From the NCBI RefSeq assembly GCF_008124835.1, contig NZ_VNHW01000008.1, forward strand, positions 62,001-126,000: 64,000 bases of DNA. The letters are read 5' to 3'. Source of the stretch: Blastococcus xanthinilyticus (GTDB taxonomy: Bacteria > Actinomycetota > Actinomycetes > Mycobacteriales > Geodermatophilaceae). The position numbers and the translations under genes were made by a program. Below the pieces are notes generated by a model, which worked only from the letters and a program-made list of their open reading frames with translations, was not told where the DNA came from and searched no databases. Positions 2,484 through 29,972 of this stretch are shown one piece after another. Within the stretch, counting starts at the first letter, position 1, and each line of letters opens with the position of its first letter.

Positions 2484-2591
2484 CCGGTCGCGCCGAGTGG
2501 GCCCCGCAGGGGTCCGCGCAGGCGTGACGCAGCGGCTCCGCGCGCCCGGGGGGCGGCACCTGGCCGCGGTGCGGTCCGGCAGGATCGCAGT
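2484..2591 (+). repeat. Dispersed structured repeat, copy 1
   Basis: About 108 bases between the oppF stop and the mshB start, alignable over their whole length with copies at 12901, 29767 and 29878. The first half folds as GTCGCGCC pairing with GGCGTGAC around an inner GGGCCCC/GGGGTCC hairpin. The second half has a GCGGC/GCCGC hairpin and a GCGGT/ATCGC arm. Arm sequences differ between copies but pairing is kept. No protein-coding sense is apparent. The 3' edge reaches the likely mshB promoter (CAGGAT at 2580-2585). Confidence 0.75.
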
Positions 2592-3479
2592 GTGAACCGC
2601 CGGATCCTGCTCGTCCACGCGCATCCGGACGACGAGACGATCACCACCGGGGCGACGATGGCCCGCTACGTCGCCGAAGGGGCCGGCGTCACGCTGCTCA
2701 CCTGCACGCTGGGGGAGGAGGGCGAGATCCTCGTCCCCGGGCTCGCCCAGCTGGCGGCCGACCGGGCCGACCAGCTGGGCGGCTACCGGATCGCCGAGCT
2801 GCGCGCGGCGATGGCCGCCCTCGGGGTGGACGACGTCCGGTTCCTCGGGGGCGCGGGCCGGTACCGCGACTCCGGGATGATCGGCACCCCGGCCAACGAG
2901 CACCCCCGCGCCTTCTGGAACGCCGACCCGGCCGAGGCGGTGGCGCACGCGGTGGCGGTGGTGCGGGAGGTCCGGCCGCAGGTCGTGGTCACCTACGACC
3001 CCGACGGCGGCTACGGCCACCCCGACCACATCCAGGCGCACCGCGTCGCGATGCGGGCGGTCGAGGCCGCCGCGGATCCCGGCTTCGCTCCCGAGCTGGG
3101 GCCGGCCTGGACCGTCGCGAAGGTGTACTGGTCCTGCGTGCCCCGGTCGGCGCTCCGGGCCGGCGCCGCCGCGCTGGCGGCGGCCGGCGACGCGGTGTCC
3201 TTCACCCGGCCGCCCGACCCCGGCACCGCGCCGTTCGCCGTCCCGGACGACGAGGTCACCACCACCGTGGACGCGGCCGCGTTCGTCGACCGCAAGGCCG
3301 ACGCGATGCGGGCGCACGCCACCCAGCTCACCGTGCAGGGCGGCTTCTTCGCGCTGTCGAACGACCTCGGCCAGCAGCTGGTCGGCGTGGAGCACTACCG
3401 GCTGGTGCGCGGCGTGCCCGGGCCGGCGGCGGACGGGAGCGGTCGCGAGGGCGACCTGTTCGCCGGGCTGGACGGGTGA
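2592..3479 (+). CDS. mshB: GlcNAc-Ins deacetylase MshB (mycothiol biosynthesis)
   Basis: Zinc-dependent deacetylase converting N-acetylglucosaminyl-myo-inositol to glucosaminyl-inositol, the second committed step to mycothiol, the main low-molecular-weight thiol of actinobacteria. 295 residues, typical length. The metal-binding AHPDDE motif is at residues 10-15, and the distal metal ligand region is [14 protein letters not shown] 2592 is chosen because AHPDDE must lie near the N-terminus and because CAGGAT lies 6 bases upstream, as expected for a leaderless transcript. The stop overlaps the next start. A mycothiol S-conjugate amidase (Mca) is the close paralogue, but the N-terminus and length fit MshB better. 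Confidence 0.93.
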
Positions 3480-3892
3480 CCGCCCGGCTGGCGGTGGCCG
3501 GCTGGGGGATCGCCGCGGTCGCCGTCGCCGCGTGGCTGGCGGTGGTCGAGGTGCTCTGGCTCCCGCTGCGGGTCGCCGGTGTGCCGGTGCCGGTGTCCGT
3601 CGTCGCGGCGGTGGTGGGCAACGTGCTGCTGGTCGCGGCGGCGCTGCGGCTGTCCGGGTCGAGGGCGGTCGCAGTCCTGCCCGCCGTCACCTGGCTGGTG
3701 GTCGTGCTGGCGGCGATGGTGCGCCGCCCCGAGGGCGACCTGCTGGTGGTCGCCGGTGCCGGGGTGGGCATCGTCAACACCGTCTTCCTGCTGCTCGGCG
3801 TGCTCGCCGCGGCCGTCAGCGTCGGGCAGGCCCTCGGGAGTCCGCAGCCGGGGGCGGCGCGGTCCGGTAGTGGTAGCGGTGGTGCTCGGTGA
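3476..3892 (+). CDS. Small membrane protein downstream of mshB (DUF6113-like)
   Basis: 138 residues with four predicted transmembrane segments (roughly 6-26, 37-58, 66-84 and 95-120) and a short Gly/Ser-rich tail. Its GTG start overlaps the mshB stop (GTGA), so it is co-translated with mshB. Small membrane proteins of this type commonly follow mshB in actinobacteria; their function is not known. The 3' end overlaps the convergent acetyltransferase gene by 77 bases, so the C-terminal tail is antisense to that gene's 3' end. Confidence 0.8.
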
Positions 3893-4595
3893 AGCCCAGC
3901 CGCGCGTAGAGGGCCAGGGCCGGGGCGTTGGACGCCGTGACCTGAAGGACGCAGCAGCGCGCGCCGCGGCTCCGGGCATCTGCGGCCAGGGTGGTCATCA
4001 GCGCCGTCGCCAGGCCGCGCCGCCGGTGCCGCTCGTCCACGGTCACCGCGCTGATCACCAGCACGTCCTCCGCCACGGCACCCCGCGCGACGGCGACCGC
4101 CGGCGCGGGCGGCGGGTACGGCCGCACCGAGGCGAAGCGCGGCTGCTCGGCGCGCCTCAGGACCGCGGTGGCCGAGGCCGGCAGGGCGCCGCCGGCGCGG
4201 TAGCCGGTCAGCCAGACCTCGTCCGGTGCGTCGGCGAGCACCACGGGCACGTCGGGGCACGGCCAGGGGCCGGCCGGGCCGGTGAGGACCACGGTGTCCT
4301 CGTCGCGTCCCCAGCCGGCGGCCGCCAGGGCGGCGTCGGCGTCGGCCGCGGGCCCCGGCACGCAGGCGCGGGCCGGGAGCCCCCGCTCGCGGTACCAGCG
4401 GGTGACGTCGGCGACGGCCGCCGGCAGCCCGGCCGGGGGGTTCCCCAGCACGAGCACCGAGTTGGCCCGGCCGGTGAAGCCACCGCCGGCCCGCAGCAGC
4501 CAGTCGCCGTAGGGCTGCTCCTCCAGCCCGCGCCAGGTGCGCGCGGCCAGCCGCTCCAGGGCGGTCACGGACGCGGGGTCGGGCGGCGCGGGCAT
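3816..4595 (-). CDS. GNAT-family N-acetyltransferase
   Basis: 259 residues. The C-terminal half has the acetyl-CoA-binding GNAT core: ISAVTVDERHRRRGLATAL (motif A with the R/Q-x-x-G-x-A loop), then [15 protein letters not shown] (motif B). The N-terminal half (LEEQPYGDWLLRAGGGFTGRANS) resembles the first of two GNAT-like domains seen in small-molecule acetyltransferases. Substrate unknown. ATG 4595 was chosen because CAGGAT lies 6 bases upstream. The gene is convergent with and overlaps the DUF6113-like gene. Confidence 0.88.
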   Translation of the reverse strand: MPAPPDPASVTALERLAARTWRGLEEQPYGDWLLRAGGGFTGRANSVLVLGNPPAGLPAAVADVTRWYRERGLPARACVPGPAADADAALAAAGWGRDEDTVVLTGPAGPWPCPDVPVVLADAPDEVWLTGYRAGGALPASATAVLRRAEQPRFASVRPYPPPAPAVAVARGAVAEDVLVISAVTVDERHRRRGLATALMTTLAADARSRGARCCVLQVTASNAPALALYARLGFTEHHRYHYRTAPPPAADSRGPARR

Positions 4596-4651
4596 GCGGT
4601 GATCCTGCCGCCCCGGTGGCGCCTCCTCCCGGCGCCCGGCCGGGAGCGGGA

Positions 4652-7498
4652 TCAGACCCGGGGCCGGGCCCCGGGAACCCGCAGCGCGCGGACCGGCCGG
4701 CTGTCCAGCCAGCCGAGCACCCGCTCGGCCGGCATGGGCCGGGAGATGTGGTACCCCTGCGCGATGTCGCACCCCCACGCGCGAAGGGCGGCGAGGGACG
4801 CGGCGTCCTCGACGCCCTCGACGACCATGCTCATGCCGAGGTCCCGGCTCAGCTGCAGCGTGCTGCGCACGATCGCGGCCGCCCGGTCGTCGGTGGTGAG
4901 GTGTGCGACGAAGCTGCGGTCCAGCTTGAGCTCGTCGACGGGCAGCGCCCGCAGGTAGGACAGCGAGGAGTACCCGGTCCCGTAGTCGTCCACCGACAGG
5001 CGGACGCTCAGGCGGCGCAGCCCGGCCATGACCTGCTGGCTGCGGGCGGCGTCGGCCATGAGGACGTCCTCGGTGATCTCCAGGACCAGGGCCCCGGCCG
5101 GGACGGCGAAGGCGTCGAGCAGCATCTCGACCTGCTCGGGCAGGGCGACGTCCTGCAGGTTGGAGACCGACAGGTTCACCGCGACCGACAGGTCGTGGCC
5201 CTGGGCCCGCCAGCCCTGCAGGTCCCGCAGCGCCCGTTCGAGCACGCGCAGGGCCAGCCGGCGCATGAGGCCGGCCTGCTCGGCGAGCGGCAGGAAGACG
5301 TCGGGGTACAGCAGGCCGCGCGCGGGGTGGTTCCAGCGGACCAGCGCCTCCAGGCCGACGACGGTCCCGGTGCGCAGGTCCAGCTTCGGCTGGTAGTGGT
5401 TGTCCAGCTGCTCGCCGTCCAGTGCGCCCCGGAGCTGCTCCAGGGTCTCCAGGCGGTCCCGCGAGGCGGGGGTGCCGTCGGGCGCCCACACCTCATGACC
5501 CTGCCGGCCCCGCTTGGCGGCGTACATCGCGGTGTCGGCGCGGGCGAGGAGGAGCGAGCGGTCGCGGCCGTGGTCCGGGCAGAGCGCGATGCCGACGCTG
5601 GCATCGACGTGCAGCGGCATCCCGTCGAGGACGAACGCGTCGCGCAGCGCCGCGCCGATGCTCTCGGCCACCGCGCGGGCCCGGGTGTCGTCGGCGTCGG
5701 GCAGGAGGACGGCGAACTCGTCGCCGCCCATGCGCGCCAGCAGGTCGCCGTCGTCCAGCACGCCCTGCAGCCGGGGGCCGACGAGGCACAGCAGGTCGTC
5801 GCCCACGCTGTGCCCGAAGCTGTCGTTGATCTCCTTGAACCGGTCCAGGTCGATCATGAGCAGGGCGCACCGGCCGGCCGGCTCGGCGTAGACGGTCGCC
5901 TCCACCGCCTCGGTGAACCGGCGGCGGTTGGCCAGCCCGGTGAGCGGGTCGTGGTGGGCCTCGGTGGCCAGTTGGGCGAGCCGCAGCTGCTCGGCCGCCC
6001 GCAGCTCGGCGTTCTCCACGACGAGGGAGCCCTCGAGGGTGACCTGGGAGACGGCGTCCCGGACGGCCGGGGACCAGGTGCGGGGTGCGCCGACCGAGCC
6101 GGAGACGACCAGGCCGAGGAGGCGGCCGCCGGACAGCAGCGGCACGCTGAGGTAGGAGGACAGGTCCAGTGCCCGCACGAGCTGCGGGTCGAGCAGGTCG
6201 CCGGCGGCCGCGTCCTCCACGAAGACCGGCCTCGGGTCGGCGCTGGCCTGCCGCCACAGCGGTACGGACGCGGCGGGGGTGCCGACCACCCGGGTGGCGA
6301 CGACCTCCTTGTGCGACTCGGGCCAGTCGACGTGCCGCACCTCGCCGATCCGGCCGTCGGCGCCCAGCAGGTAGGCGGCGCTGCGGTCGGTCCCGGCCAG
6401 GCGCTGGACGGCGCGGGCCAGCACCTCCGCGGCCTCGGCCACGCCGGTCGCCGCCGAGCCGTCGACGAGCAGCTGCCGCACGACCTCGGCGGTGGCCAGG
6501 GAGGCGGCGCGCGCCTGGCTGGTGCGGGCCTGCTCGATGACCCCACCGAGGTGGGCTCCCGCGGCGGCGGCCAGGCGACGGACGGCCTCGGAGAACGGGC
6601 GCAGCTGCGTGCTGTCGAGCGTGAGGACGCCGGCCAGCTCCGGAGCGCGGCCCAGCGGCACGGCCAGCGCGGAGGCGATCTGGAAGGAGTCCACCCACCA
6701 GCCGTCGACGAGCCCGGACGTGCGGTCCGCGGTCCGGGGCTCCCCGGTGCGCAGGACCGTCTCGGCCAGCTCGAGGGCGACCGGCGCGTTGCGGAACTGC
6801 TCCCAGGTGACCGGGTCGCGCCGGCCGTCGGCGTAGGCCGCCATCCGCGGGACCAGCCGGCCGTCCTCGACCAGGAAGATGCAGGCGCGCTCCACCTCGC
6901 CGAGCTCGGCGAGCCGGCGGCAGGCCGAGCCGAGCAGGGCGTCCATCGACTGCGCCTGGCCGGCGGACTCGATCAGCCCGAGCAGCACGGCGGCCTGGTC
7001 CAGCCGCCGCTGGTCGGAGCGGCGGGTCCACGCCTCGGCGAGCGCGGCGGCGAGGCGGGGAGCCGCCTGGCGCAGCAGGTGCGGCGCGGCGGCGGCCGCG
7101 GGCTCCACGGTCAGGACGCCCACGACCTCGCCGTCCAGGATCAGCGGCTCGCCGTGGGCCGAGCGGATGCCCACCTCGGCGAGCTGGCGGTCGGCCCTGC
7201 GGCGGCCGTCGGCCCGGGCCACGACGGCCTGCCGGCTGGTGATGACCGCGGACAGGAAGGGGGAGTCGGAGACGAAGGCGGGGGTGCGCAGCGCGGGGTG
7301 CGTGGGCCGCGGCGTGCTGGGGGAGGAGGCCTGCCGGAACGGCACCACGAGCTCGGTGGTCGCCTCGTGCACCCACACCGACACCCGGGTGGCCCCGGAG
7401 GAGGCGCGCAGCCGGGCGAGCAGGTGCGCCAGCGCCGCCTGGGCGTCGTAGGGCGACGGCTGCCGTGGGGCGGAGCCGGCCTGCGTCGTCTCGGGCAC
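4652..7498 (-). CDS. GAF-GGDEF-EAL cyclic-di-GMP signalling protein
   Basis: 948 residues. The first ~480 residues carry GAF-like sensory segments (for example VGVLTVEPAA, LAVPLGRAPELAGVLTLDS and LSVPLLSGGRLLGLVV). A GGDEF diguanylate cyclase domain follows, with intact MGGDEF near residue 590 and DPLTGLANRR at its start. An EAL phosphodiesterase domain ends the protein, with the intact signature GLEALVRW near residue 714 plus DDYGTGYSSL and ITEDVLM. Both active sites look complete, so it could make or break c-di-GMP. No transmembrane segment or signal peptide, so it is cytosolic. GTG 7498 (VPETTQ) is the only sensible start; the upstream frame is low-complexity. Confidence 0.93.
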   Translation of the reverse strand: MPETTQAGSAPRQPSPYDAQAALAHLLARLRASSGATRVSVWVHEATTELVVPFRQASSPSTPRPTHPALRTPAFVSDSPFLSAVITSRQAVVARADGRRRADRQLAEVGIRSAHGEPLILDGEVVGVLTVEPAAAAAPHLLRQAAPRLAAALAEAWTRRSDQRRLDQAAVLLGLIESAGQAQSMDALLGSACRRLAELGEVERACIFLVEDGRLVPRMAAYADGRRDPVTWEQFRNAPVALELAETVLRTGEPRTADRTSGLVDGWWVDSFQIASALAVPLGRAPELAGVLTLDSTQLRPFSEAVRRLAAAAGAHLGGVIEQARTSQARAASLATAEVVRQLLVDGSAATGVAEAAEVLARAVQRLAGTDRSAAYLLGADGRIGEVRHVDWPESHKEVVATRVVGTPAASVPLWRQASADPRPVFVEDAAAGDLLDPQLVRALDLSSYLSVPLLSGGRLLGLVVSGSVGAPRTWSPAVRDAVSQVTLEGSLVVENAELRAAEQLRLAQLATEAHHDPLTGLANRRRFTEAVEATVYAEPAGRCALLMIDLDRFKEINDSFGHSVGDDLLCLVGPRLQGVLDDGDLLARMGGDEFAVLLPDADDTRARAVAESIGAALRDAFVLDGMPLHVDASVGIALCPDHGRDRSLLLARADTAMYAAKRGRQGHEVWAPDGTPASRDRLETLEQLRGALDGEQLDNHYQPKLDLRTGTVVGLEALVRWNHPARGLLYPDVFLPLAEQAGLMRRLALRVLERALRDLQGWRAQGHDLSVAVNLSVSNLQDVALPEQVEMLLDAFAVPAGALVLEITEDVLMADAARSQQVMAGLRRLSVRLSVDDYGTGYSSLSYLRALPVDELKLDRSFVAHLTTDDRAAAIVRSTLQLSRDLGMSMVVEGVEDAASLAALRAWGCDIAQGYHISRPMPAERVLGWLDSRPVRALRVPGARPRV

Positions 7499-7720
7499 GT
7501 CATCAAGATCGGCTTCCTCCCAGGGCGCTTGAGCCGGGTGCGGGGGCCCACCCCGATCGGGTGAGCTGGGCCCAGCGCCGGCCGCCGGGGGACCTCCGCC
7601 GGAGGGACGAGGGAGTGGCCCGTGGCACGGCGCTCGACGGGGCAGGTGATACTGAGGAGGCATCCTGGCGCACCGGTCCCGGCCGGCGGCGCTGCCCGAA
7701 CGTCCCCGGGAGGGAACCCC

Positions 7721-8047
7721 GTGACCTACGTCATCACCCAGGCCTGCGTCGACGTTCTCGACAAGGCGTGCATCGACGAGTGTCCGGTGGACTGCATCTA
7801 CGAGGGCGACCGGATGCTGTACATCCACCCCGACGAGTGCGTCGACTGCGGCGCCTGCGAGCCGGTGTGCCCGGTGGAGGCCATCTACTACGAGGACGAC
7901 GTCCCGGACAAGTGGAAGGACTTCTACAACGCCAACGTGGACTTCTTCTCCGACCTGGGCAGCCCCGGTGGCGCGGCCAAGACCGGCAAGATCGGCAAGG
8001 ACCACCCGCTGGTGGCCGCCCTCCCGCCGCAGGGCGAAGGGCACTGA
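7721..8047 (+). CDS. fdxA: Seven-iron ferredoxin FdxA
   Basis: 108 residues. Cysteines follow the 3Fe-4S/4Fe-4S ferredoxin pattern: C-x7-C-x3-CPVDC in the first 22 residues, then [12 protein letters not shown]. It is a small soluble electron carrier of the actinobacterial FdxA/FdxC type. GTG 7721 (VTYVITQAC) matches the family N-terminus and follows a purine-rich GGGAGGG. The stop TGA overlaps the apparent start of dapC, an arrangement shared in general terms with other actinobacteria, where fdxA precedes dapC. The upstream 7499-7720 region holds the promoter (TGGCAC and TGATAC candidates) and otherwise nothing recognised. Confidence 0.95.
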
Positions 8048-9165
8048 CGGCTGACGCCGCAGGGCCCTCCCGCGCCCTGCCGGACTTCCCCTGGGACTCC
8101 CTCGCCGGGGCGCGCGCCCGCGCGGCGCAGCACCCCGGCGGGGTGGTCGACCTGTCGATCGGCACGCCGGTCGACCAGACCCCCGCCGTGCTCCGGGACG
8201 CGCTGGCCGGCGCGGCGGACGCCCCCGGGTACCCGACGGCGCTGGGCACCCCCGCGCTCCGGACGGCGGCGGCAGCCTGGCTGCGACGGCGCCTGGACGT
8301 CGAGGTCGCCGAGTCGCCGGACGGGCCACCCCCGCTGATCCCCACGGTCGGCTCCAAGGAGCTGGTGGCGCTGCTGCCCACCCTGCTGGGCCTGCAGGGC
8401 AGCGCGACCACCGTCGTCCTCCCGGAGGTCGCGTACCCGACCTACGAGGTCGGCGCCGTCCTGGCCGGGCTGGCGGTCCGGCGCAGCGACGTGCCACCCG
8501 CCGACGGGGCCGGGATCTCGCTGGTCTGGCTGAACTCCCCGGGGAACCCGCACGGTCGGGTGCTCACCGACGACGAGCTCCGGACGTGGGTGGCGTGGGG
8601 GCGGTCGCACGGGATCCCCGTCGTGGCCGACGAGTGCTACATCACCCTCGGCTGGGACGTGAGGCCCCGGTCGATCCTGCACCCCGCCGTGGCGGGGGAT
8701 GACCACACCGGCCTGCTGGCGGTGCACTCGCTGTCCAAGCAGTCGACCGCGGCCGGCTACCGGGGCGGTCTGCTCTCCGGTGACCCGGCGCTGGTCCGCC
8801 AGGTGTGGGAGGTGCGCCGGCACCTCGGCCTGCTGGTGCCGGCACCGGTCCAGGCCGCGATGGCCGCCGCGTTCGACGACGACGCGCACGTCGACGCCCA
8901 GCGCGAGCGGTACCGCTCGCGGCGGGACCGGCTGGCCGCGGCGGTGCGGGACGCCGGGATGCGGATCGAGCACTCCGAGGCCGGGCTCTACCTCTGGGCC
9001 ACCCGCGACGAGGACTGCTGGACCACCATCGACCGGCTGGCCGGGCTCGGGATCGTGGCCGCACCGGGCAGCTTCTACGGCCCGGCCGGCGCCCGCCACG
9101 TCCGGCTCGCGCTCACCGCGACCGACGAGCGGATCGACGCCGCGGTGGAGCGGCTGCGCGGCTGA
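8044..9165 (+). CDS. dapC: N-succinyldiaminopimelate aminotransferase DapC, apparent CTG start
   Basis: PLP-dependent class I/II aminotransferase of the succinylase branch of lysine/diaminopimelate synthesis. The PLP-binding lysine sits in [14 protein letters not shown], the substrate/cofactor region in [11 protein letters not shown], and the C-terminal Arg region in HVRLALTA. Homologues begin a few residues before [12 protein letters not shown], and this frame has no ATG, GTG or TTG near there. The best candidate is CTG 8044, overlapping the fdxA stop as CTGA; translation would read (M)[14 protein letters not shown] and give 373 residues, the usual length. The next in-frame GTG (in GGVVDLS) would cut into the fold. 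Confidence 0.88.
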
Positions 9166-9244
9166 GCGGCGCGGCGGCCCAGACCGCTCCCGTGCAGGGC
9201 GGCCGGGCGGGGTGGCGTCACAGGGCCCGACCGATCGGATGACC

Positions 9245-10828: not shown

Positions 10829-10912
10829 CTGCGGATCGTGCCGGCGAGGTGTGACAGTTCCGGTGGACCGCCCGGCCCGCGCTGGGTCCGGGCCTGTCGC
10901 AGCGCGACCAGG

Positions 10913-11620: not shown

Positions 11621-11781
11621 CAGGACCGACTGTAGGTCGAGCTCGCGGCCCGTGCCGGGACGCGGGCACGGTGCCGGGCGTGCGCCGTGGCGCCCGGTGA
11701 CCGAGGTCGCAGCCCGCCCTCGCGTGGGCTGTTCCCGACCGGCCGGCACCGATACCGTGTGCCCGCCGTCGAGGAGGAGCC

Positions 11782-12897: not shown

Positions 12898-12900
12898 CGC

Positions 12901-13001
12901 CCGGTCGTGCCGAGTGGGGCCCGGAGGGTCCCGGGCAGGCGCGAATCAGCGGCTCCGTGCAACGCGGGGACGGCACGTGGCCGCGGTGGAGGCCGGAGGC
13001 C
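12901..13001 (+). repeat. Dispersed structured repeat, copy 2
   Basis: About 100 bases between the convergent ends of the hydrolase gene and dapD. The outer arm GTCGTGCC pairs with GGCGCGAA (one end mismatch), the inner GGGGCCC pairs with GGGTCCC around GGA, and CGGC/GCCG forms a second hairpin. The sequence differs from copies 1, 3 and 4 mostly at paired positions where pairing is retained. It may also act as the terminator between the two convergent genes. Confidence 0.7.
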
Positions 13002-13004
13002 GAC

Positions 13005-13994
13005 CTATGTATTCGCGTGCAGCTCGGCGTTCAGCGCGCCCCACGTGCCCTGTCGGACGACGGCCTCCAGCGTCCCGGTCACGCTGTTGCGGCGGAACAG
13101 CAGCCCGTCGCGGCCGGACAGCTCGCGCGCCTTGACCACCGAGCCGTCGGGCAGCGTGATCCGCGAGCCGGCGGTGACGTAGCAGCCGGCCTCGACGACG
13201 CAGTCGTTGCCGAGCGAGATCCCGATGCCGGCGTTGGCGCCGATCAGGCAGCCGGTACCGATGGAGATCCGCTGGGTCCCCCCGCCGGACAGGGTGCCCA
13301 TGATCGACGCGCCGCCACCCACGTCGCTGTCCGCGCCGACGACCACACCGGCGCTGATCCGGCCCTCGACCATGGAGGGGCCCAGCGTGCCGGCGTTGAA
13401 GTTGACGAAGCCCTCGTGCATGACCGTCGTCCCGTCGGCGAGGTGGGCGCCCAGCCGCACCCGGTCGGCGTCGGCGATGCGGACGCCGGTGGGGATGACG
13501 TAGTCGACCATCCGCGGGAACTTGTCCACGCCGAAGACGGTCACGTGGCCGACCGCCGCCCGCAGCCGGTGCGCGTTGAACGTCGCCGCCTCCACCGGGC
13601 CGGCGCTGGTCCAGGCCACGTTGGTGAGCAGCCCGAAGACGCCGGTCATGTCCGCCTGGTGCGGCCGGATCAGCCGGTGCGAGAGCAGGTGCAGCCGCAG
13701 CCACACGTCGTGGGTGTCCACCGGCGGGGCCGACAGGTCGGCGATGACCGTGCGGACGGCGACGACCTCGACGTCCCGTGCCTCGTCGGTGCGCACCAGC
13801 CCGCCGTAGTCGGGGCCCAGCTCGCCGGAGAGCTCGAGCGCGCCCAGCCGGGTGGTGCCCGTGGCCGCGCCGTCCGGGGCGTCGAGCCGCGGCTCGGGGT
13901 ACCAGGTGTCGAGCACGGTGCCCGCCCGGGTGATCGTCGCCAGACCGGCGGCGGAGGCGGAGACGGGCACGGCGGCGGAGGCTGCGTCGGTCAC
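13005..13994 (-). CDS. dapD: Tetrahydrodipicolinate N-succinyltransferase DapD
   Basis: 329 residues. It transfers succinyl from succinyl-CoA to tetrahydrodipicolinate, the committing step of the succinylase route to meso-diaminopimelate for peptidoglycan and lysine. The N-terminal domain is followed by left-handed beta-helix hexapeptide repeats ([32 protein letters not shown] and [14 protein letters not shown]), as in the actinobacterial DapD group. GTG 13994 lies 7 bases downstream of TAGCGT, so the message is probably leaderless. It is divergent from dapE; the shared spacer contains an inverted-repeat structure. Confidence 0.95.
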
Positions 13995-17826: not shown

Positions 17827-17837
17827 GTGTTGCGGAC

Positions 17838-17870: not shown

Positions 17871-17883
17871 GGATGGTGGGCCC

Positions 17884-18928: not shown

Positions 18929-19070
18929 CCCTGGTGGAAGGCCCGAAAGGAGGGTCCGGCGGGGTTCGTGTTGGACGACGGGAGCTCATACGGGATCATT
19001 GCCGTAGCTCACAGCATCGGACACCACGCGCCTGCCTCCGGCGGGCTCGTGGCTGGCGAAGGAGGCACGC

Positions 19071-19238: not shown

Positions 19239-19276
19239 ACTCCTCCGCGACGCCGCCTCCCGGCAGCTCCGCGCAG

Positions 19277-19329
19277 GACGGCACGGCCCCGGCCGCCGGC
19301 TTCTCGCCGGTGACCGGGGCCGTGCCGTC
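19277..19329 (+). terminator. Strong intrinsic-type hairpin after DUF3117
   Basis: A perfect 16-bp inverted repeat (GACGGCACGGCCCCGG at 19277-19292 with its complement at 19314-19329) encloses an inner CCGGC/GCCGG hairpin. It directly follows the DUF3117 stop. There is no long T run, as is usual for actinobacterial terminators. Confidence 0.85.
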
Positions 19330-19390
19330 TCCGGGGTCGCCGCCCGCCGTCCGTGCGGTGGGCCCCCCGCTGCGGGCCGGACGCCGTCCG

Positions 19391-19444
19391 GGAGATGCTG
19401 TGCCGGTGGGAGACGCTGTGCCGGTGGGAGATGCTGTGCCGGTG
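19391..19444 (+). repeat. 18-bp minisatellite, three copies
   Basis: Three tandem 18-bp units with the core GGAGAYGCTGTGCCGGTG lie at 19391-19408, 19409-19426 and 19427-19444; only one base differs, in the middle unit. They lie just upstream of the next gene. Read in one frame they encode GDAVPV repeats that end at a TGA overlapping the next ATG, but that frame has no convincing start. Confidence 0.85.
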
Positions 19445-19455
19445 GTGAGCGACTG

Positions 19456-20922: not shown

Positions 20923-20929
20923 GCGCGGA

Positions 20930-22432: not shown

Positions 22433-22489
22433 GGACCCACCGTAGCCAGCCCGCGCCGACCTCCCGGCCGGTGGGCCGCCGGGCACCGG

Positions 22490-24157
22490 TCAGCGGGCCG
22501 CGGGCACCGCGAGCGCCAGGACGGCGAGGTCGTCGGGCTCGTGGCGGGAACCGGCCAGCTGGCTCTCGACGGCGGCCGACACCGCGGCGACGACGGCCTC
22601 CGCGTCGGCGACCGGGGCCCCGGCGACCACCCGCAGCAGCGCGTCCTCCCCGAACTGCCGGCCGGCGTCGTCGCGGGCCTCGGTGACCCCGTCGGTGTAG
22701 AGCACGAGGGTGGACCCGGGTGCCAGGTCGAGGACCGTCTCGGTCACCTCCAGGTCGCCGTCGATGCCGAGCGGCCGGCCGGCCGTCCCGATCGCCCGGG
22801 CGTCGCCGTCGGGGCCGGTGACCAGCGGCAGCGGGTGGCCGGCCACGCCGAGGCGCAGCCGGGCGCCCCGTGCGGCCGGCTCGAGGACCAGGCAGCAGGC
22901 GGTGACGAAGCGCAGCGGTCCGGTGCCCTGCTCGTGCAGCAGGGCGGCGTTGACGGCGCGGAGGATCTCCGCCGGGCTGTCCGTGGCCGCCGCGCGGGCG
23001 GTGTGCCGGGTGACCGCGGTGACGGCGGCGGCCTCCGCCCCGGTGCCGCAGACGTCGGCGATCAGCACCATCCACCGGCCACCCGGGAGCGGCATCACGT
23101 CGTAGGTGTCGCCGCCGACCAGCGCGGCCTCGCCTCCGGCGCGGTAGTGGGCCGCCAGCTCGACGCCCGGGATCGTCGGGAGGTGCGACGGGAGCAGGCT
23201 GCGCTGGAGGGTCTCGGCGAGCTCGCGGACCACCGACTCGGCGCGCAGCCGCGCGAGGAACTGGCCGATCTGCCGGCCGGCGTGCCCGAGCACCTCGAGC
23301 AGCTCCGGGGGCACCGGTCGCTGGGTGGTGGAGAACAGCTCGCAGACGGCGAGCAGCGAGTCGCCGCTGAGCACGGGGAACGCCACCCCTGTGCTGAGCC
23401 CGTCGGCCCGGACCACCTCGCGGCGGACCAGCCGGGGATCGGCCGCGAGCTCCTCGGCCACGACCGGTGCGCGGTGCAGCCACGCGCGCCCCGGCAGGCC
23501 CTCACCGCGGTGGAACACCCGGGTGGGAGCATCGGTGGCCAGGGCCGGGACGTCGGCGTCGGGAGCGGCCCAGGTGGCCGCGTGGAGCAGCCGTCCGTGC
23601 TCGGTGTCGGCCTGCCACAGCAGGGCGGCGTCCCAGTCCAGCGCGGTGCACAGCGTGGGCAGCAGCTGGGCGAAGGCGACGTCGGCGTCGCGGGCCTCGG
23701 TGAGGGCCGCGGTGACCCGCAGCGTGGCCGCCAGGTAGCGGCTGACCTGGAGCTGGCGCTCCAGCAGGATCGTGGTGCTCGCGTCACGGAGCACGCCGAC
23801 GATCGAGGACTCCGCGGCCGAGGCGCCGGGGAACGGCTCCACGCGGGCGAGGGTGACGTCGATCGAGATCTCGTGCCCGTCGACGTGCAGCGCGGGCAGC
23901 TGGGTGGTGTTGCCGACGAGTTCGCCCTGCCCGGTGGTGAGGAAGCGGGTGATGTGGCCGCCGTGCCCCGTGCGGAACCGGGACGGCATGATCTCGGTCA
24001 GGTCGCGGCCGAGCAGGTCGGCCGGGGAGTACCCCAGCAGCCGGGACACGGCCGGGTTCACGTACGTCACGCGGCCGCCGGCGTCGGCCACGACGACCGT
24101 GTCCGGCAGGGCCGCCAGCAGCGTCGCCGCAGGCACCCCTGAGGTGGCCTCGGGCAC
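22490..24157 (-). CDS. PAS-GAF-PP2C (SpoIIE/RsbU-type) serine phosphatase
   Basis: 555 residues. A PAS domain (about 10-130, VVVADAGGRVTYVNPAVSRLLGYS), a GAF domain (about 140-300, VAFPVLSGDSLLAVCELFS) and a C-terminal PP2C-type phosphatase (about 330-550) are visible. The phosphatase metal-site motifs are VGGDTYDVMPL, LIADVCGTGAEAA, GHPLPLV and LYTDGVTEAR. Such proteins dephosphorylate anti-anti-sigma factors in partner-switching stress control; no partner is adjacent. GTG 24157 has GGGGGAG upstream. No transmembrane helix, so it is a cytoplasmic sensor. Confidence 0.93.
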   Translation of the reverse strand: MPEATSGVPAATLLAALPDTVVVADAGGRVTYVNPAVSRLLGYSPADLLGRDLTEIMPSRFRTGHGGHITRFLTTGQGELVGNTTQLPALHVDGHEISIDVTLARVEPFPGASAAESSIVGVLRDASTTILLERQLQVSRYLAATLRVTAALTEARDADVAFAQLLPTLCTALDWDAALLWQADTEHGRLLHAATWAAPDADVPALATDAPTRVFHRGEGLPGRAWLHRAPVVAEELAADPRLVRREVVRADGLSTGVAFPVLSGDSLLAVCELFSTTQRPVPPELLEVLGHAGRQIGQFLARLRAESVVRELAETLQRSLLPSHLPTIPGVELAAHYRAGGEAALVGGDTYDVMPLPGGRWMVLIADVCGTGAEAAAVTAVTRHTARAAATDSPAEILRAVNAALLHEQGTGPLRFVTACCLVLEPAARGARLRLGVAGHPLPLVTGPDGDARAIGTAGRPLGIDGDLEVTETVLDLAPGSTLVLYTDGVTEARDDAGRQFGEDALLRVVAGAPVADAEAVVAAVSAAVESQLAGSRHEPDDLAVLALAVPAAR

Positions 24158-24292
24158 TTCTCCCCCTCGAGCACGGTGGTGCGGACGGCCGTCGACGGCT
24201 CGTTCCAGGTCTCACGTTCTCACACGGGGGGTGAGTGCGCGCGCACGGAAAGTCGACATGTGGTCAAGTCGACATGGCGGTGCGATCCGAGC

Positions 24293-25411
24293 TCAGAAGG
24301 CATACCTCATCCGCAGCCACGGCGCGCGCCGGGCGACCAGGTCGCGCACCCGGGCCACCGCCGCGCGCTTGACGTCGGCCCGGTAGCGGACGTTGTCCTG
24401 GCCGTTCTGGCTGCGCTTGGGCTCCTGCAGGTCGGGGCGCCAGAGCAACCGCTCCGCCGTCGGGTGCCAGCCGAGGTTCACCTCGTGCAGCGCCTCGTTG
24501 TGGGTGAGCAGGATGACCTCGGCCGCAGCCTGGGACTTCGCGGCCGGCCCGAGCTCGTCGTCCAGCCGGTCGAGCAGCCGCCCCCAGTCCTGCTCCCAGC
24601 CCTCGCGCAGCACGACGGGGGAGAGGTTCAGGTGGACCTCGTAGCCGGCGGCCACGAAGTCGTCGACCGCCGCGATCCGGTCGGCGATCCGGCTGGTGCG
24701 GACGTCGAGGACCCGCGCGTCGTCGTCGGGCATGAGCGAGAACCGGATGCGGGTGCGCCCGGCCGGGTCCAGCTCCAGCAGCCCCCGGTTGACGTACTTG
24801 GTGGCGAAGGAGGCCTTCGCCGTCGGCAGGTCGCGGAACGTGGCCACCAGGTCGGCGACGTTGTCGCTGACCAGGGCGTCCACGGAGCAGTCGCTGTTCT
24901 CGCCGATGTCGTACACCCAGCTGTCGCGGTCGCACTGGTCCGGTTCGGTCTTCGGGCCCTGGCGCGCTACGTGCCGGCGCAGGTGACCGGTGATCTGCTC
25001 GATGTTGGTGAAGACGGTGATCGGGTTGGCGAACCCCTTGCGCCGGGGCACGTAGCAGTAGACGCAGGCCATCGCGCAGCCGTTGGCGAGGCCGGGGGCG
25101 ATGAAGTTCGCCGACCGGCCGTTGGGGCGGGTGGCGAGCCCCTTGCGGACGCCGAGCACCAGCGTCTCGGTCTTCACCCGCACCCAGCGGTCGACGAGCC
25201 CCTCGTTGCCGTGCAGCTCCGGGATCTGCCAGTGCGACGGGACCTCGACGACCTCCGCACCGGGGAAGCGGCCGAGCACCTGCCGGCCGCGCGGGATGGT
25301 CAGCGCCGCGGGCTCGGCGTAGATCCGGCGCACCTGCAGCAGCGCGTTGGTCGGCATCGGCGTCGCCGGCGGGTCGACGTCGAAGAGGGTCAGCGGCTCG
25401 GCGGCGGCCAT
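24293..25411 (-). CDS. Spore-photoproduct-lyase-like radical SAM protein
   Basis: 372 residues. The iron-sulfur motif is CAMACVYC (Cys112, Cys116, Cys119; CX3CX2C spacing as in spore photoproduct lyase rather than the usual CX3CX2C-at-N-terminus enzymes). The SPL-family body includes [26 protein letters not shown] and [14 protein letters not shown]. This organism is not expected to form endospores, so the substrate may be another DNA or RNA lesion, or something unrelated; actinobacteria carry such genes widely (Rv2578c-like family). ATG 25411 gives [10 protein letters not shown]; upstream in-frame sequence looks non-coding. Confidence 0.88.
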
Positions 25412-25463
25412 GCCTGGTGCAGCGCCGGGGAGGCGGCCGCCATTCCGGTGCGAGACTGCCCCG

Positions 25464-26240
25464 GTGAGCGCGCCCGGCCCCCGCCGCATCGACCTCAACG
25501 CCGACCTCGGTGAGGGGTTCGGCGTCTGGCGGCTCGGGGACGACGAGGCGCTCCTCGAGGTCGTCACCAGCGCCAACGTCGCCTGCGGGTTCCACGCCGG
25601 TGACCCCGTCACGATGCGCCGGGTGTGCCGCGGCGCCGTCGCCGCCGGGGTGTCCATCGGCGCGCAGGTCTCCTACCGCGACCTGGCCGGCTTCGGCCGG
25701 CGGTTCGTCGACGTCGCGCCCGAGGAGCTGGCGGCCGACGTGCTCTACCAGCTGGCCGCGCTCGACGGCATCGCCCGGACGGCCGGGGGACGGGTCTCCT
25801 ACGTCAAGCCGCACGGCGCCCTCTACAACGCCGTCGTGCACCACGAGGCGCAGGCCGCGGCGGTGGTGACGGCCGTCGCCGGCTACGACCCCGGGCTGGC
25901 CGTGCTGGGGCTGCCCGGCTCGCGGTTGCTGCAGGCGGCGGCGGAGGCCGGGCTGCCGACGGTCGGCGAGGCGTTCGCCGATCGGGGCTACACCCCGGAG
26001 GGCACGCTGGTGCCGCGCGGCCTGCCGGGCGCGGTGCTGCACGAGCCGGCCGCCGTCGCCGGGCGCGCGGTCCGGATGGTCCGCGACGGAACGGCGGTCG
26101 CCGTCGACGGCAGCGTCGTGCGGGTGGACGTCGGCTCGGTCTGCGTGCACGGAGACACCCCGGGCGCGGTGCACCTGGCGCGGTCGGTCCGCGCCGCGCT
26201 GGAGGCAGCCGGCCTGGTGCTGGCGCCGTTCGCCGGCTGA
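25464..26240 (+). CDS. pxpA: 5-oxoprolinase subunit PxpA (LamB/YcsF family)
   Basis: 258 residues. It begins [12 protein letters not shown], has [15 protein letters not shown] and [10 protein letters not shown], and closes with [12 protein letters not shown], all LamB/YcsF hallmarks. With PxpB and PxpC it forms ATP-dependent 5-oxoprolinase, recycling pyroglutamate to glutamate. The partner genes pxpBC lie 2 kb downstream, separated by two genes on the other strand. GTG 25464 was chosen because it places IDLNADLGE near the N-terminus. Confidence 0.94.
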
Positions 26241-26259
26241 GCGGTCGCGGGCCGGGCGG

Positions 26260-27000
26260 TCACGGGCCGGGCGGCCGGTCGGCGCGCAGCTCCTCCAGCG
26301 GCCGCCGCCCGGCGAGCAGGTCGGCGGCCACCTCGTCGACCGAGCGCCCGGCCGCGTAGGCGTCGACCCGGAGCAGGGCCAGCGCCTCGGCGGACCCGAT
26401 GTCGAGGGCCACGCCGATCTTGCCGACCGCCTCCCACACCGCGGCCCGTTGCCGCGGTGCCGGCCCGTGCAGCCAGTCCGGCCCCTCGGCCGGCGACCAG
26501 GTCGACCACATCGCCGCCTCCGCGAGCGCGGAGCTGATCAGCTCACCCACGGCGACGGCGTCGAACACGTCGAGCTCGGCCACCGCATCCCCGCGGGTCA
26601 CGTACAGGTCGAGGGCGCCGCCGCCGGACGGCGGCGACCGCAGCGGCAGCGCGACCACCCCGCGGTAGGGCGTCCCGCCGAGGAACAGGGTGGCGAACAT
26701 CGGCCAGCGCCGCCGGAGGTCCTCCTCGGCCGCGAACACCGGTTGCCCGGTCCGCTGGGAGGCCACGCAGGGGCCCTCGCCGGCCGTGAACTGCATCTGC
26801 TCGGCCGTCGACGCCGCGGCGCTGCTGGCGCCCAGCGGAACCCGCCGGCCGCTCGCGTCGCTCATGCTGAGGCCGGCGCCGTCCACGGCGAGCACCCGGG
26901 CGCACGCCCGGCTCAGCCGCACCGGCAGCAGCTCGGGAGCGGCCAGCGCGGGTGCGGAGACCGCGGCGAGCGCAGCGGAGAACCGCTCGGCGATGGGCAT
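26260..27000 (-). CDS. GAF-ANTAR domain regulator
   Basis: 246 residues. The GAF-like sensor covers about residues 25-165 (GPCVASQRTGQPVFAAEEDLRRRWP, RGVVALPLRS). The C-terminal ANTAR domain (about 180-240: AVWEAVGKIGVALDIGSAEALALLRVDAYAAGRSVDEVA) binds nascent RNA hairpins to cause antitermination in characterised members. Ligand and target RNAs are unknown. ATG 27000 lies 5-6 bases after an ACAAT-type -10. It sits inside the split pxp cluster on the opposite strand. Confidence 0.88.
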   Translation of the reverse strand: MPIAERFSAALAAVSAPALAAPELLPVRLSRACARVLAVDGAGLSMSDASGRRVPLGASSAAASTAEQMQFTAGEGPCVASQRTGQPVFAAEEDLRRRWPMFATLFLGGTPYRGVVALPLRSPPSGGGALDLYVTRGDAVAELDVFDAVAVGELISSALAEAAMWSTWSPAEGPDWLHGPAPRQRAAVWEAVGKIGVALDIGSAEALALLRVDAYAAGRSVDEVAADLLAGRRPLEELRADRPPGP

Positions 27001-27072
27001 GCCCGATTGTGTGCCCGGACGTGGCAGTCCTCATCCCGGGCCGGCGCGTCCCTCCTCCGGCCCGCGTGCGGT

Positions 27073-28206
27073 TCAGCCGGGCGAGCGGTCCGGTCGGTAG
27101 GTGTAGGCGGCCTCGCGGACCGCCTCGTCGGTCTCCAGCCCCGCGCCCAGCGCACCGCCCACGGTCGCCAGCGAGCTGGTCAGCCAGGCCAGCTCCAGGT
27201 AGTCCGCCAGCGACGCCGGGTGCCCGAGCCCCTCGGCGAAGAGCGGTTCGACCACGAGCAGCAGGCCACCCAGCAGGGCCAGCACGAAGAGCGCGAGGTA
27301 CAGCGACAGCACCCCGATGGCCACGGTCGCGGCCGTGGCGATGTTGAACAGCACCACCTGCTTGCGCACCCGCGGCTGCCGGGGCCGCTCCCACATGTCG
27401 GCCCCGACGATGAGCGTGACCGCGATCGCGACCACCGATCCGATGCCGACCAGCAGCAGGCGCAGCCACCCGAAGGCGTCGGCCAGCCGCCAGATGTCGG
27501 CGGTCACCAGGGCGAAGACGCCGGCGGCGATCGCCGCGGTGAGGGCCCGCGAGAGCCGGACGGCCAGCCGCCACGGCCGGTTGGCCCGCACCATCCCGCC
27601 GAGCAGCCGCAGGTTGCCCGAGAGCACCCGCGCGGTGAACCGGACCCCGTCGGCGGAGTCGGCCGGATCGGTGGCCAGCTGCCGCAGGCGGGCGCCGAGC
27701 GCGGCCCGGTCGCCGGGGTCGTCGGGGTCGTCGTCGCCGTCGCTCACCAGCGCCTGCACCAGGCCGACCGCGGTCTCCAGCGCGCGCCGGCGGCGGCCCA
27801 CGGCGCCGAGGGCGGGCAGGGAGAGGACGCCGACGCCGTGCAGGGGGCTGGCGTGGCCGGTGACCGGGCGACGGGCCACCTCCAGTGGGACGTCGGTGAA
27901 GCAGAGCGCCAGGTCCCAGTCGGCCTGCAGCAACCGCTCGCGGGTGGCGCCGACCAGCTCGGCGTCGTCGGCCGGTGGCTGCACCAGGCCGTCCTCGACC
28001 ACCGGCACCTGCCAGCCGACCTCCGGGTGCCGGGCGGTCAGCTCGGCGGCGAGCTCGGTCGCCAGGCCCGCGGCCAGCTCGGCCGGTGCGCCGGGAGCCG
28101 CCACCAGCCCCACCACGACCACGGGCACGGGCTGCTCCGGCGCAGCGCCGGCGCCGGCCGGGGCGGTCGCACGGGGTCCGGCGTCCGCGGGCGGCGTCGA
28201 GGTCAC
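27073..28206 (-). CDS. Conserved membrane protein of unknown function
   Basis: 377 residues. A soluble N-terminal part (about 20-200) has alternating hydrophobic strands (PVPVVVVGLVA, WDLALCFTDVPL and GVGVLSLPALGAVGRR). It is followed by four transmembrane helices (about 215-240, 245-265, 285-320 including LALFVLALLGGLLLVV). The middle holds an acidic linker, DGDDDPDDPGD. Not assignable. GTG 28206 gives VTSTPPAD; other starts add low-complexity residues. Runs opposite to pxpA and pxpBC and separates them together with the GAF-ANTAR gene. Confidence 0.78.
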   Translation of the reverse strand: MTSTPPADAGPRATAPAGAGAAPEQPVPVVVVGLVAAPGAPAELAAGLATELAAELTARHPEVGWQVPVVEDGLVQPPADDAELVGATRERLLQADWDLALCFTDVPLEVARRPVTGHASPLHGVGVLSLPALGAVGRRRRALETAVGLVQALVSDGDDDPDDPGDRAALGARLRQLATDPADSADGVRFTARVLSGNLRLLGGMVRANRPWRLAVRLSRALTAAIAAGVFALVTADIWRLADAFGWLRLLLVGIGSVVAIAVTLIVGADMWERPRQPRVRKQVVLFNIATAATVAIGVLSLYLALFVLALLGGLLLVVEPLFAEGLGHPASLADYLELAWLTSSLATVGGALGAGLETDEAVREAAYTYRPDRSPG

Positions 28207-28306
28207 GACGGTCCAGCATTCCAGCCGCCCCGCGCCGCCGGGCACCGGGCCGCCGCACGGCTCTTCTGTACCCGATCATGGGCCGGTGGACGAGGGGAGC
28301 GCAGGG

Positions 28307-28915
28307 GTGCGCGCGGTGCCGTACGGCGACCGCGCGGTGCTGCTCGAGGTGGCGGGCGCCGAGGCGCTCGCGGGGCTGCGGGCCGCGCTGCTGGCCACCC
28401 CGCTCGCCGGTCAGGTGGATCTCGTCCCGGCGGCGCGCACGCTGCTCGTGGTCCTCGACCGGCCGCCCACCGACCTCGACCTGGCCGCGCTGCGCCGGCT
28501 GGTGCCCGCCGCTCCGGCGGCCGGCGGTGCTGCCGCGGCGGTGGAGCTGGCGGTGGTCTTCGACGGCCCCGATCTCGACGAGGTGGCCGAGCGCACCGGC
28601 CGCTCCGCCGACGCCGTCGTCGCCGGGCTCACCGGCGCCCGGCTCACCGTCGCCTTCGGCGGCTTCGCCCCCGGCTTCGGCTACCTGACCGGGCTGCCGC
28701 CGGAGCTGCACGTGCCGCGCCGCGCGACCCCGCGCACCCGGGTGCCGGCCGGCGCGGTCGGGCTCGCCGGCCCCTACGCCGGGGTCTACCCGCGGGCCTC
28801 GCCGGGCGGCTGGCAGCTGGTCGGCCGGACCGCCGCGGTGCTCTTCGACGTCGACCGCGACCCACCGGCGCTGCTCTCGCCCGGCACGGCGGTCCGGCTG
28901 CGGGCGGTGGGCTGA
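28307..28915 (+). CDS. pxpB: 5-oxoprolinase subunit PxpB
   Basis: 202 residues, allophanate-hydrolase-subunit-1/KipI-like. It begins VRAVPYGDRAVLLEV and contains VAFGGFAPGFGYLTGLP, PRTRVPAGAVGLAG, YAGVYPRASPGGWQLVGRT and FDVDRDPPALLSPG. Partner of PxpC in 5-oxoprolinase. GTG 28307 has GAGGGGAG 9 bases upstream and matches the family N-terminus; GTG 28286 is an alternative that would add seven residues. The stop TGA is directly followed by the pxpC GTG. Confidence 0.93.
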   Translation: MRAVPYGDRAVLLEVAGAEALAGLRAALLATPLAGQVDLVPAARTLLVVLDRPPTDLDLAALRRLVPAAPAAGGAAAAVELAVVFDGPDLDEVAERTGRSADAVVAGLTGARLTVAFGGFAPGFGYLTGLPPELHVPRRATPRTRVPAGAVGLAGPYAGVYPRASPGGWQLVGRTAAVLFDVDRDPPALLSPGTAVRLRAVG

Positions 28916-29764
28916 GTGCTCACCGTCCTGACGCCCGGGCCGTTCTGCACCGTGCAGGACGCCGGCCGCACCGGCTGGGCGTCGATCGGGGTGCCCCGCT
29001 CCGGCGCGGCCGACCGGGCCGCGGCCGGGCTGGCGAACCGGCTGGTGGACAACCGGCCTGCCGCGGCGGTCCTGGAGGCGACCGCCGGGGGGCTGCGGGT
29101 CCGCGCCGGGCGGACGGTGCTGGTGGCCGTGGCCGGTGTCCCGGCCCCGGTCACGGTCGACGGCCGGCCGGCGCCCTTCGCCGCCCCGACGACCCTGCCC
29201 GCGGGTTCGGTGCTGGGGCTCGGGACGCCGCCGGCCGGGCTGCGCAGCTACCTCGCCGTGCGCGGCGGCATCGACGTCCCGCCGGTACTGGGGTCGCGCA
29301 GCACCGACACGCTGTCCGGCCTGGGGCCGGCGCCGCTGGCCGCCGGGGCGCGGCTGCCGATCGGCACGGAGGCCGGTGCGGAGCCGTTCGTCGACGTCGC
29401 GCCGGTCGGCGTCCCGTCCGACCGGCCGGTGCTGCGGGTCCTTTCCGGGCCGCGGCGGAACTGGCTGGCCGAGGACGCCTGGGCGGCCCTGCTCCGGGCG
29501 GAGTGGCAGGTGCGCCCGGACAGCGACCGGATCGGGCTGCGGCTGGCCGGCCCCCGGCTGGACCGGGCGAGGGAGGGCGAGCTGCCCAGCGAGGGACTGG
29601 TTCCCGGCGCCGTCCAGGTGCCGCCGGACGGGGCCCCGGTGCTCTTCCTCGCCGACCACCCGGTCACCGGCGGCTACCCGGTCCTCGCCGTGGTGGTCAG
29701 CGCCGACCTCCCGGCCGCCGCCCAGCTGCGGCCGGGAGACGTCGTGCGGTTCCGCGCCGCCTGA
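28916..29764 (+). CDS. pxpC: 5-oxoprolinase subunit PxpC
   Basis: 282 residues, biotin-dependent-carboxyltransferase-like (KipA/urea amidolyase C2-like). Motifs are VLTPGPFCTVQDAGRTGWASIGVPRSGAAD at the start, YLAVRGGIDVPPVLGSRSTDTL, SDRIGLRLAGPRL, SEGLVPGAVQVPPDGAPVLFLADHPVTGGYPVLAVV near the end. Works with PxpA and PxpB. Starts immediately after the pxpB stop without a gap. A tandem pair of dispersed repeats follows the stop. Confidence 0.94.
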   Translation: MLTVLTPGPFCTVQDAGRTGWASIGVPRSGAADRAAAGLANRLVDNRPAAAVLEATAGGLRVRAGRTVLVAVAGVPAPVTVDGRPAPFAAPTTLPAGSVLGLGTPPAGLRSYLAVRGGIDVPPVLGSRSTDTLSGLGPAPLAAGARLPIGTEAGAEPFVDVAPVGVPSDRPVLRVLSGPRRNWLAEDAWAALLRAEWQVRPDSDRIGLRLAGPRLDRAREGELPSEGLVPGAVQVPPDGAPVLFLADHPVTGGYPVLAVVVSADLPAAAQLRPGDVVRFRAA

Positions 29765-29766
29765 TC

Positions 29767-29877
29767 CCGGTCGTCCCGAGTGGGCCCCGGAGGGGTCCGC
29801 GCAGGGACGACGAATCGGCTCCGCATGACTGGGGACGGCCGTTGGCCGCGGTGCGATCCGGAGGACCGCAGTGCCAT
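29767..29877 (+). repeat. Dispersed structured repeat, copy 3
   Basis: Full-length copy, best hairpin of the family: GTCGTCCC (29770-29777) pairs perfectly with GGGACGAC (29804-29811), enclosing GGGCCCC/GGGGTCC with a GGA loop. A CGGCC-GTT-GGCCG hairpin and a GCGGT/ACCGC arm follow. It lies right after pxpC. Bases 29783-29877 are duplicated in tandem by copy 4. Confidence 0.8.
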
Positions 29878-29972
29878 GGCCCCGGAGGGGTCCGCGCAGG
29901 GACGACGAATCGGCTCCGCATGACTGGGGACGGCCGTTGGCCGCGGTGCGATCCGGAGGATCGCCGTGTCAT
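29878..29972 (+). repeat. Dispersed structured repeat, copy 4 (tandem duplicate of copy 3)
   Basis: A 95-bp direct repeat of 29783-29877, almost identical until the last ~12 bases. It lacks the outer left arm of the first hairpin, so its GGGACGAC arm has no local partner. It ends a few bases before the stop of the convergent btuD gene. Confidence 0.8.

Follow-up and report, generated by a model that had tools for sequence, protein, structure and literature searches.

We describe a dispersed repeat of about 110 bp that occurs four times in a 64,000-nucleotide (nt) stretch of the Blastococcus xanthinilyticus genome (contig NZ_VNHW01000008.1, positions 62,001 to 126,000; the whole stretch is called the window here). 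On balance, we favor the view that the repeat is a non-autonomous, interspersed family of a kind with repetitive extragenic palindromes (REPs) and miniature inverted-repeat transposable elements (MITEs), that it is mobilized in trans, and that its fold is probably still selected where a copy has settled. An initial annotation of the window had aligned four segments end to end and read them as copies of a selected RNA or DNA fold. The four segments are indeed related and lie in three intergenic places (sites 1 to 3). Their features, all on the + strand, are as follows; a window coordinate is the contig (C8) coordinate minus 62000, and R1 is our covariance model.

2483..2596, + strand: copy 1, full length, its right end running into a GTG start (2592); R1 match C8:64483-64596, 98.1 bits
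2487..2528, + strand: copy 1 module A, outer stem and nested inner hairpin
2571..2588, + strand: copy 1 module C hairpin, GCGGTCC-GGCA-GGATCGC
12900..13016, + strand: copy 2, right hairpin decayed, reaching the CTA stop (13005-13007) of a minus-strand gene; R1 match C8:74900-75016, 86.5 bits
12904..12945, + strand: copy 2 module A, in which G opposite A disrupts the outermost pair
29766..29880, + strand: copy 3, full length, first of a head-to-tail pair; R1 match C8:91766-91880, 114.7 bits
29770..29811, + strand: copy 3 module A, 8 of 8 outer pairs formed
29853..29869, + strand: copy 3 module C hairpin, GCGATCC-GGA-GGACCGC, one A-C mismatch
29878..29972, + strand: copy 4, duplicating copy 3 in tandem (97% over 95 nt) but lacking the module A left arm; repeat family D8; R1 match C8:91872-91975, 68.7 bits
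29948..29964, + strand: copy 4 module C hairpin, GCGATCC-GGA-GGATCGC; minus-strand gene stop at 29977

The outer arms that had been pointed out are all present: GTCGCGCC (2487-2494) with GGCGTGAC (2521-2528) in copy 1, GTCGTGCC (12904-12911) with GGCGCGAA (12938-12945) in copy 2, and GTCGTCCC (29770-29777) with GGGACGAC (29804-29811) in copy 3. The end-to-end alignment stands as far as relatedness goes but not for copy 4, a truncated tandem duplicate that begins with GGCCCC at 29878 and cannot form the outer stem because the 5′ arm is absent. Similarly, the inner hairpins recur except that the right-hand hairpin of copy 2 has decayed to about 4 bp, and only copies 1 to 3 follow stop codons as claimed for all (12, 3, and 2 nt after the stop), since copy 4 comes after copy 3. 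At their right ends, copies 2 and 4 extend to the stop codon of an opposite-strand gene (at 13005 and 29977, respectively), and copy 1 extends to the GTG with which the following gene begins (2592). Single copies fold unremarkably for their composition (RNA folding z of -1.98, -0.87, -2.19, and +1.44 for copies 1 to 4), and the evidence for a fold is comparative.

Further copies, on which the initial annotation had made its reading depend, are plentiful. The covariance model gave 115 matches at an E value of ≤1 in the genome (4.6 Mb, 38 contigs), and BLAST with copy 3 as the query gave 68. With matches closer than 1.5 kb merged, the 109 strongest model matches (E up to about 0.02) make up 69 sites, of which 49 are single copies and 20 are clusters of 2 to 5, with a single orientation in 19 of the 20 clusters. 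The copies are intergenic, palindromic, numerous, and close to gene 3′ ends, as are REP-type repeats. Chance similarity of the four window copies is ruled out by this copy number together with the covariation described below.

The repeat has three modules. Module A consists of two nested hairpins, the inner one GGGCCCC-GGA-GGGGTCC, enclosed by an outer stem GTCGTSCC / GGSACGAC. The linker that forms module B has a weaker hairpin near GACGGCACCTGGCCGCGG. Module C is a right-hand hairpin of 7 bp (e.g., GCGATCC-GGA-GGATCGC or GTCGTCC-GGA-GGACGAC) and has a tail near GATGTCAT. Both strong hairpins carry, by eye, the tip C-GGA-G, which is the usual tip of module C; the loop is sometimes a four-base GGNA. 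Units are duplicated locally, head to tail (84-bp units matching at 100% and 94-bp units at 99%), and module C is also duplicated alone (31-bp units, 96% match).

We detected the repeat in 100 of 112 Geodermatophilaceae genomes and in 9 of 12 genera, with per-genome counts that are lower bounds because at most 33 candidates were scored per genome. In a class-wide sample of 394 genomes, scanned with strict filters and at most nine candidates scored per genome, matches occurred only in the present genome and in one genome of another family (G144), whose locus L347 has one weak model match (E of 8e-5). A pattern scan of species genomes found at least 110 stretches; among the 80 matches listed, all but two were from Blastococcus, Geodermatophilus, Modestobacter, or other Geodermatophilaceae, and the two exceptions were labelled Bacillus sp. 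AZ43 and marked UNVERIFIED. Mostly in titles and the opening lines of abstracts, we found no published description of the repeat for the Geodermatophilaceae, for its genera, or among actinobacterial repeats; the accessible part of PMC9686282 mentions, of repeats, only CRISPR (clustered regularly interspaced short palindromic repeats).

The stems covary. In an alignment of 20 copies made without reference to structure (A2; 20 of 30 BLAST loci, with 10 partial or near-identical ones excluded), both sides had changed in 10 of 30 pairs, and on four of five measures the observed value was attained by 0 of 500 shuffles (on the fifth, further pair types, by 15 of 500). Two larger alignments (A3 and A4) were fitted to the covariance model. 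Double changes were found in 19 of 30 pairs in the family-locus set (96 matches; 236 cells, the mean of the shuffles being 80) and in 20 of 30 pairs in the set of copies from the present genome (88 matches, 79 distinct; 262 cells against 72). None of 500 shuffles reached the observed value on any of the five measures in either set, a comparison that related sequences inflate, and sliding the partner columns by 1 to 3 removed most of the signal. The 80 family loci were picked by an exact module A pattern and so lean toward an intact module A. The claim that bases change while pairing is kept is thus borne out, with double changes far above both the shuffled and the slid controls, and the covariation supports a selected RNA or DNA fold. 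As in a structured RNA, it exceeded the controls on one strand.

Imperfect pairs identify that strand. Read on the + strand and with columns that have G-U as a rule omitted, G-U outnumbered A-C by 132 to 21 in the family set and by 100 to 13 in the present genome; the ratio was 16:3 in the structure-free alignment. The bias was similar at convergent sites (106:17) and at sites where the + strand is antisense to both neighbors (74:14), and two wobble columns are near-fixed, one of them being U-G in 94 of 95 copies. Because G-U is far above A-C, it is one single strand, as RNA or single-stranded DNA, that pairs. We conclude that the + strand of the repeat is the pairing strand. In RNA folding, the + and minus strands gave -71.5 and -53.6, -56.9 and -50.4, and -62.4 and -51.8 kcal/mol for the three copies other than copy 4; truncated copy 4 had no + strand advantage (-41.1 and -42.1 kcal/mol). 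A selected double-stranded cruciform would tolerate G-T in one strand as readily as A-C in its partner, and a cruciform selected equally on both strands is disfavored by the asymmetry. The same asymmetry bears on the idea that templated correction of quasi-palindromes at replication keeps the stems of a mobile repeat complementary, the fold itself being unselected. Such correction would suit stems that differ greatly in sequence and yet remain complementary, most of all in module C. However, it should yield Watson-Crick pairs equally on both strands, whereas G-U is in large excess over A-C and two wobble columns are near-fixed; we consider it unlikely.

We compared site 1 across 22 genomes of the genus, the present one included. 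Forward copies were found in the present genome and in G013, and inverted copies in G033, G034, G008, G005, G002, and, in part, G016. Nine genomes (G031, G011, G009, G030, G001, G017, G012, G003, and G006) had spacers of 10 to 95 nt with, by eye, no full copy, and five had other, longer spacers. The states for G013, G002, G008, and G033 match the model results; the others were judged by eye. With gene ends extrapolated, the site 2 spacer, 107 nt in the present genome, measured only 4 nt (G015) and 12 nt (G014), and the site 3 spacer, 212 nt in the present genome, measured ≤12 nt in G003, G013, G010, G032, and G004; at site 3, G008 had an array of two units, G007 a copy, and G034 a remnant. All three window places are therefore polymorphic for presence and absence, and insertion polymorphism at orthologous sites is a property of MITEs. 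Neither terminal inverted repeats nor a target-site duplication was seen in the consensus or in the site 2 and site 3 comparisons, the relatives being too distant for exact ends. Among all loci examined, single-copy sites in shared spacers gave 33 distinct same-orientation and 19 opposite-orientation pairs, which are not frequencies because the loci were mostly chosen for having a copy. That related species have a given site occupied, inverted, or empty indicates that copies come and go. Together with the many copies in most of the family, this variation supports the REP/MITE-like mobile element that had been proposed.

Some site 1 spacers have features of their own. The inverted copies of L073 (G008) and L074 (G005) form a subtype in which module A begins GTGGACCGGTCG rather than GGTCGTGCC, and sites of the present genome such as C15:31071 resemble it. 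The spacers L082 (G007), L068 (G015), L083 (G032), and L070 (G004) contain another palindrome-rich sequence, in which GATCAGGTGACCTGATC-like palindromes and a repeated GTCCTCCCTC occur, possibly a second repeat family. In the spacer that holds window positions 2571-2594, versions lacking a full copy (L075, L078, L079, L081, L065, and L064) end in (G)GATCCGGCAGGATCG..GTG or a similar sequence, which looks much like module C plus a start codon and also, as we take it, like a leaderless -10 region. Since GGTCCGGCAGGATCG at this spacer also occurs in G003, which has no R1 copy anywhere in its genome, it may be native sequence that has merged with copy 1.

Location was analyzed at 124 sites with gene calls from a home-made caller. 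They comprise 58 of the 69 sites of the present genome (one mixed-orientation cluster and 10 that missed a stricter cut or did not start the locus were left out) and 66 of 85 family clusters (19 close to a locus edge were left out). Sixty-one sites lay between convergent genes, 42 between tandem genes with the repeat antisense, 16 between tandem genes with the repeat sense, and 5 between divergent genes, compared with 93 convergent, 571 tandem, and 163 divergent among 827 copy-free junctions. The convergent excess (p of 5e-21), the divergent deficit (p of 2e-6), and the preference for antisense over sense (p of 9e-4) have optimistic p values because some family sites are orthologous to sites of the present genome. 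All 69 sites of that genome, weaker ones included, divide into 34 convergent, 31 tandem, and 4 divergent. The C end lay at the stop codon of the antisense gene at 62 of 124 sites and the A end at a sense stop at 34; where only one end touched a stop codon, it was the C end in 50 cases and the A end in 22 (p of 0.001). Promoter avoidance accounts for part of this pattern but not for the difference between the A and C ends. At 103 of the 124 sites, the + strand is the one that would be copied by a polymerase entering the C-end gene in the antisense direction.

A conserved fold with drifting sequence behind stop codons, with the folding strand being the bottom strand of the abutting gene, is also what a folded single-strand recombination site for a tyrosine recombinase would look like, as in the attC sites of integrons. 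The attC core motif is GTTRRRY. However, the repeat consensus contains no GTT and hence no such core (integrases were not searched for), and the copies are dispersed, with no cassette array. We regard an attC-like site as very unlikely.

Copies in the same place in two species bear on selection after insertion. The 33 distinct same-orientation pairs come from 37 rows, four of them repeated through overlapping loci of the present genome; 22 pairs also have the adjoining flank in common, and among them are 15 independent pairs. Across these 15, changes affected 90 of 895 stem sites (10.1%) and 170 of 829 loop sites (20.5%; p of 1.5e-9). Single stem transitions kept pairing in 21 cases and broke it in 4 (p of 9e-4), not counting 36 changed stem sites in pairs altered on both sides. 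Strand-biased mutation is not the cause of this 21:4 ratio, because A/G changes outnumber C/T changes in the loops (34 to 19). We read the same-place data as support, short of proof, for selection in place.

These data, together with the gene-end location, the one-sided contact with stop codons, and an identity of 86 to 93% in the best same-place pairs against 72 to 96% in flanking genes, would also suit a repeat that is chiefly a cis-acting RNA element (a terminator, 3′-end stabilizer, or antisense barrier) selected at gene ends, its dispersion being old and its mobility minor. We consider this possible but doubtful. The same spacer can be empty or hold an oppositely oriented copy in related species, and the congener G003 has 0 copies against 108 in the present genome. 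Moreover, by eye, no T run follows module C, and Rfam gave 0 matches at the curated threshold in the window. The only Rfam matches around copies 3 and 4 were three at chance level (E of 2.7 to 3.5), and a known RNA family was rejected.

We searched for what might move the repeat. The RAYT (REP-associated tyrosine transposase) type of enzyme that the initial annotation suggested looking for did not turn up: the Y1 transposase domain (PF01797) was found in 0 of 112 family genomes, with the control positive in 5 of 14. Genes for an RVT_1 reverse transcriptase are present in 49 of the 112, including the present genome, and a retroelement, in which reverse transcriptase copies the folded + strand RNA, would fit the strand-specific fold. 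Against this, G008 has 60 copies and no RVT_1 match, and G091 has two RVT_1 matches and no copy; RVT_1 was rejected as the mover for this phyletic pattern. The enzyme may have been lost recently from genomes of the G008 type, but we find a retroelement extremely unlikely. Copy 3 had no match at an E value of ≤0.01 in plasmid and phage collections, nor did the exact module A pattern in viral contigs. A regular-expression scan of the collected loci for a longer, gene-bearing form, such as an autonomous MITE partner sharing the same ends, gave only tandem arrays and, judged from spacing, neighboring separate sites; intervening genes and whole genomes were not scanned. As for a processed RNA, the other form that the initial annotation had proposed, the strand that would fold can be named, but by eye the left flanks share no conserved sequence that might travel with the repeat as its promoter.

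We therefore return to a mobile repeat with a fold selected in place. Copies would spread by inserting with the help of an enzyme that acts in trans and probably recognizes the folded + strand, and they would settle mainly where the C end meets a gene 3′ end. Once in place, the folded + strand would still be selected, most likely as RNA. Its effect there is most likely that of a transcript end or barrier, given the 103 sites at which the + strand is antisense to the C-end gene; this is the weakest step. Beyond the optimistic location p values, several observations weigh against this account. No mobilizing enzyme was found in the searches for Y1 and RVT_1 (other transposase classes were not searched), and the nearest genomes are too far apart to fix exact ends or a target duplication. 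There is no replication-strand bias in three closed genomes (48 versus 60 sites), where we take dnaA to be at the sequence start, judging by eye from the first protein. In the 15 same-place pairs, 29 further single stem changes, all non-transitions, mostly break pairing, so that single stem changes overall break pairing more often than they keep it; in the 12 most similar pairs, 24 of 42 changed pairs keep pairing and 18 break it. In some of the same-place pairs, related copies may have inserted separately, the flank threshold being the 95th percentile of random pairs. A further proposal, which we offer only tentatively, is that across the family the repeat is a selfish element, moved in the form of a folded single strand by a kind of enzyme not yet linked to REP-like repeats, and that it has also been domesticated, its + strand RNA fold being selected for stopping or blocking antisense transcription into the 3′ end of the abutted gene.

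BOX elements of Streptococcus pneumoniae are modular, intergenic, and strongly structured, with a variable internal copy number, and we know of no enzyme of their own. The present repeat is likewise a modular, structured, intergenic repeat with variable internal copy number but, on this general description of BOX, has other hosts, another sequence, and other modules. Mycobacterial interspersed repetitive units (MIRUs), the nearest actinobacterial kind in habit, prefer TGA sites. As described in the available parts of PMC2734929 and PMC4213456, the MIRUs of Mycobacterium are intergenic repeats of 40 to 100 bp, scattered (41 places in M. tuberculosis) and tandem, and the corresponding spacers have only a few base pairs in relatives without them. 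The likeness is one of description, not of sequence, and those parts describe no structural covariation for MIRUs.

REPs, according to the accessible text of PMC3733652, are single palindromes of 20 to 40 bp with an unpaired GTAG or CGTC tag, found intergenically in many copies, between convergent and unidirectional gene pairs and near 3′ ends. The ends of GTAG REPs often provide the stop codon of the flanking gene, and CGTC REPs have no known transposase. The present repeat shares the gene-end location, the stop codons, and, with CGTC REPs, the lack of a known transposase. In contrast, it is about 110 bp long, has nested hairpins and a third hairpin, and has neither tag in its consensus (GTAG is absent, and where the reverse strand reads CGTC, these letters are within or adjacent to a paired arm); its arrays run head to tail, whereas those of REPs are in opposite orientation. 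The same text, as far as available, mentions none of Geodermatophilus, Modestobacter, Blastococcus, or “actinobacter.” Like REPINs (REP doublets forming hairpins), described in the accessible parts of PMC3116915 and PMC2817692 as miniature repeats moved in trans, the repeat would depend on an outside enzyme but, unlike REPIN/RAYT systems, it occurs in a family in whose 112 genomes no Y1 transposase was found. We file it as a new family of the REP/MITE-like kind, REP-like in habit but set apart by tag, size, and RAYT.

The window has two other repeats. A 128-nt direct repeat (42200-42327 and 43426-43553; 93% identical, 1.2 kb apart) is unrelated to the hairpin repeat, and an 18-nt tandem array of the GGGCCGTAGCCGGGCGGC type spans 51302-51553 in about ten registers.

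RAYT transposases account for those REP-like repeats whose mover is known, and the family described here is abundant and clearly structured in genomes without a detectable Y1 transposase. As a congener with 0 copies exists, a comparison of gene content could identify the enzyme that moves it. The count of G-U against A-C pairs is a simple test for the folding strand of a bacterial repeat and, combined with same-place copies in related species, helps to separate selection in place from selection on movers. Because position and copy number differ between species, the repeats may also serve as markers.

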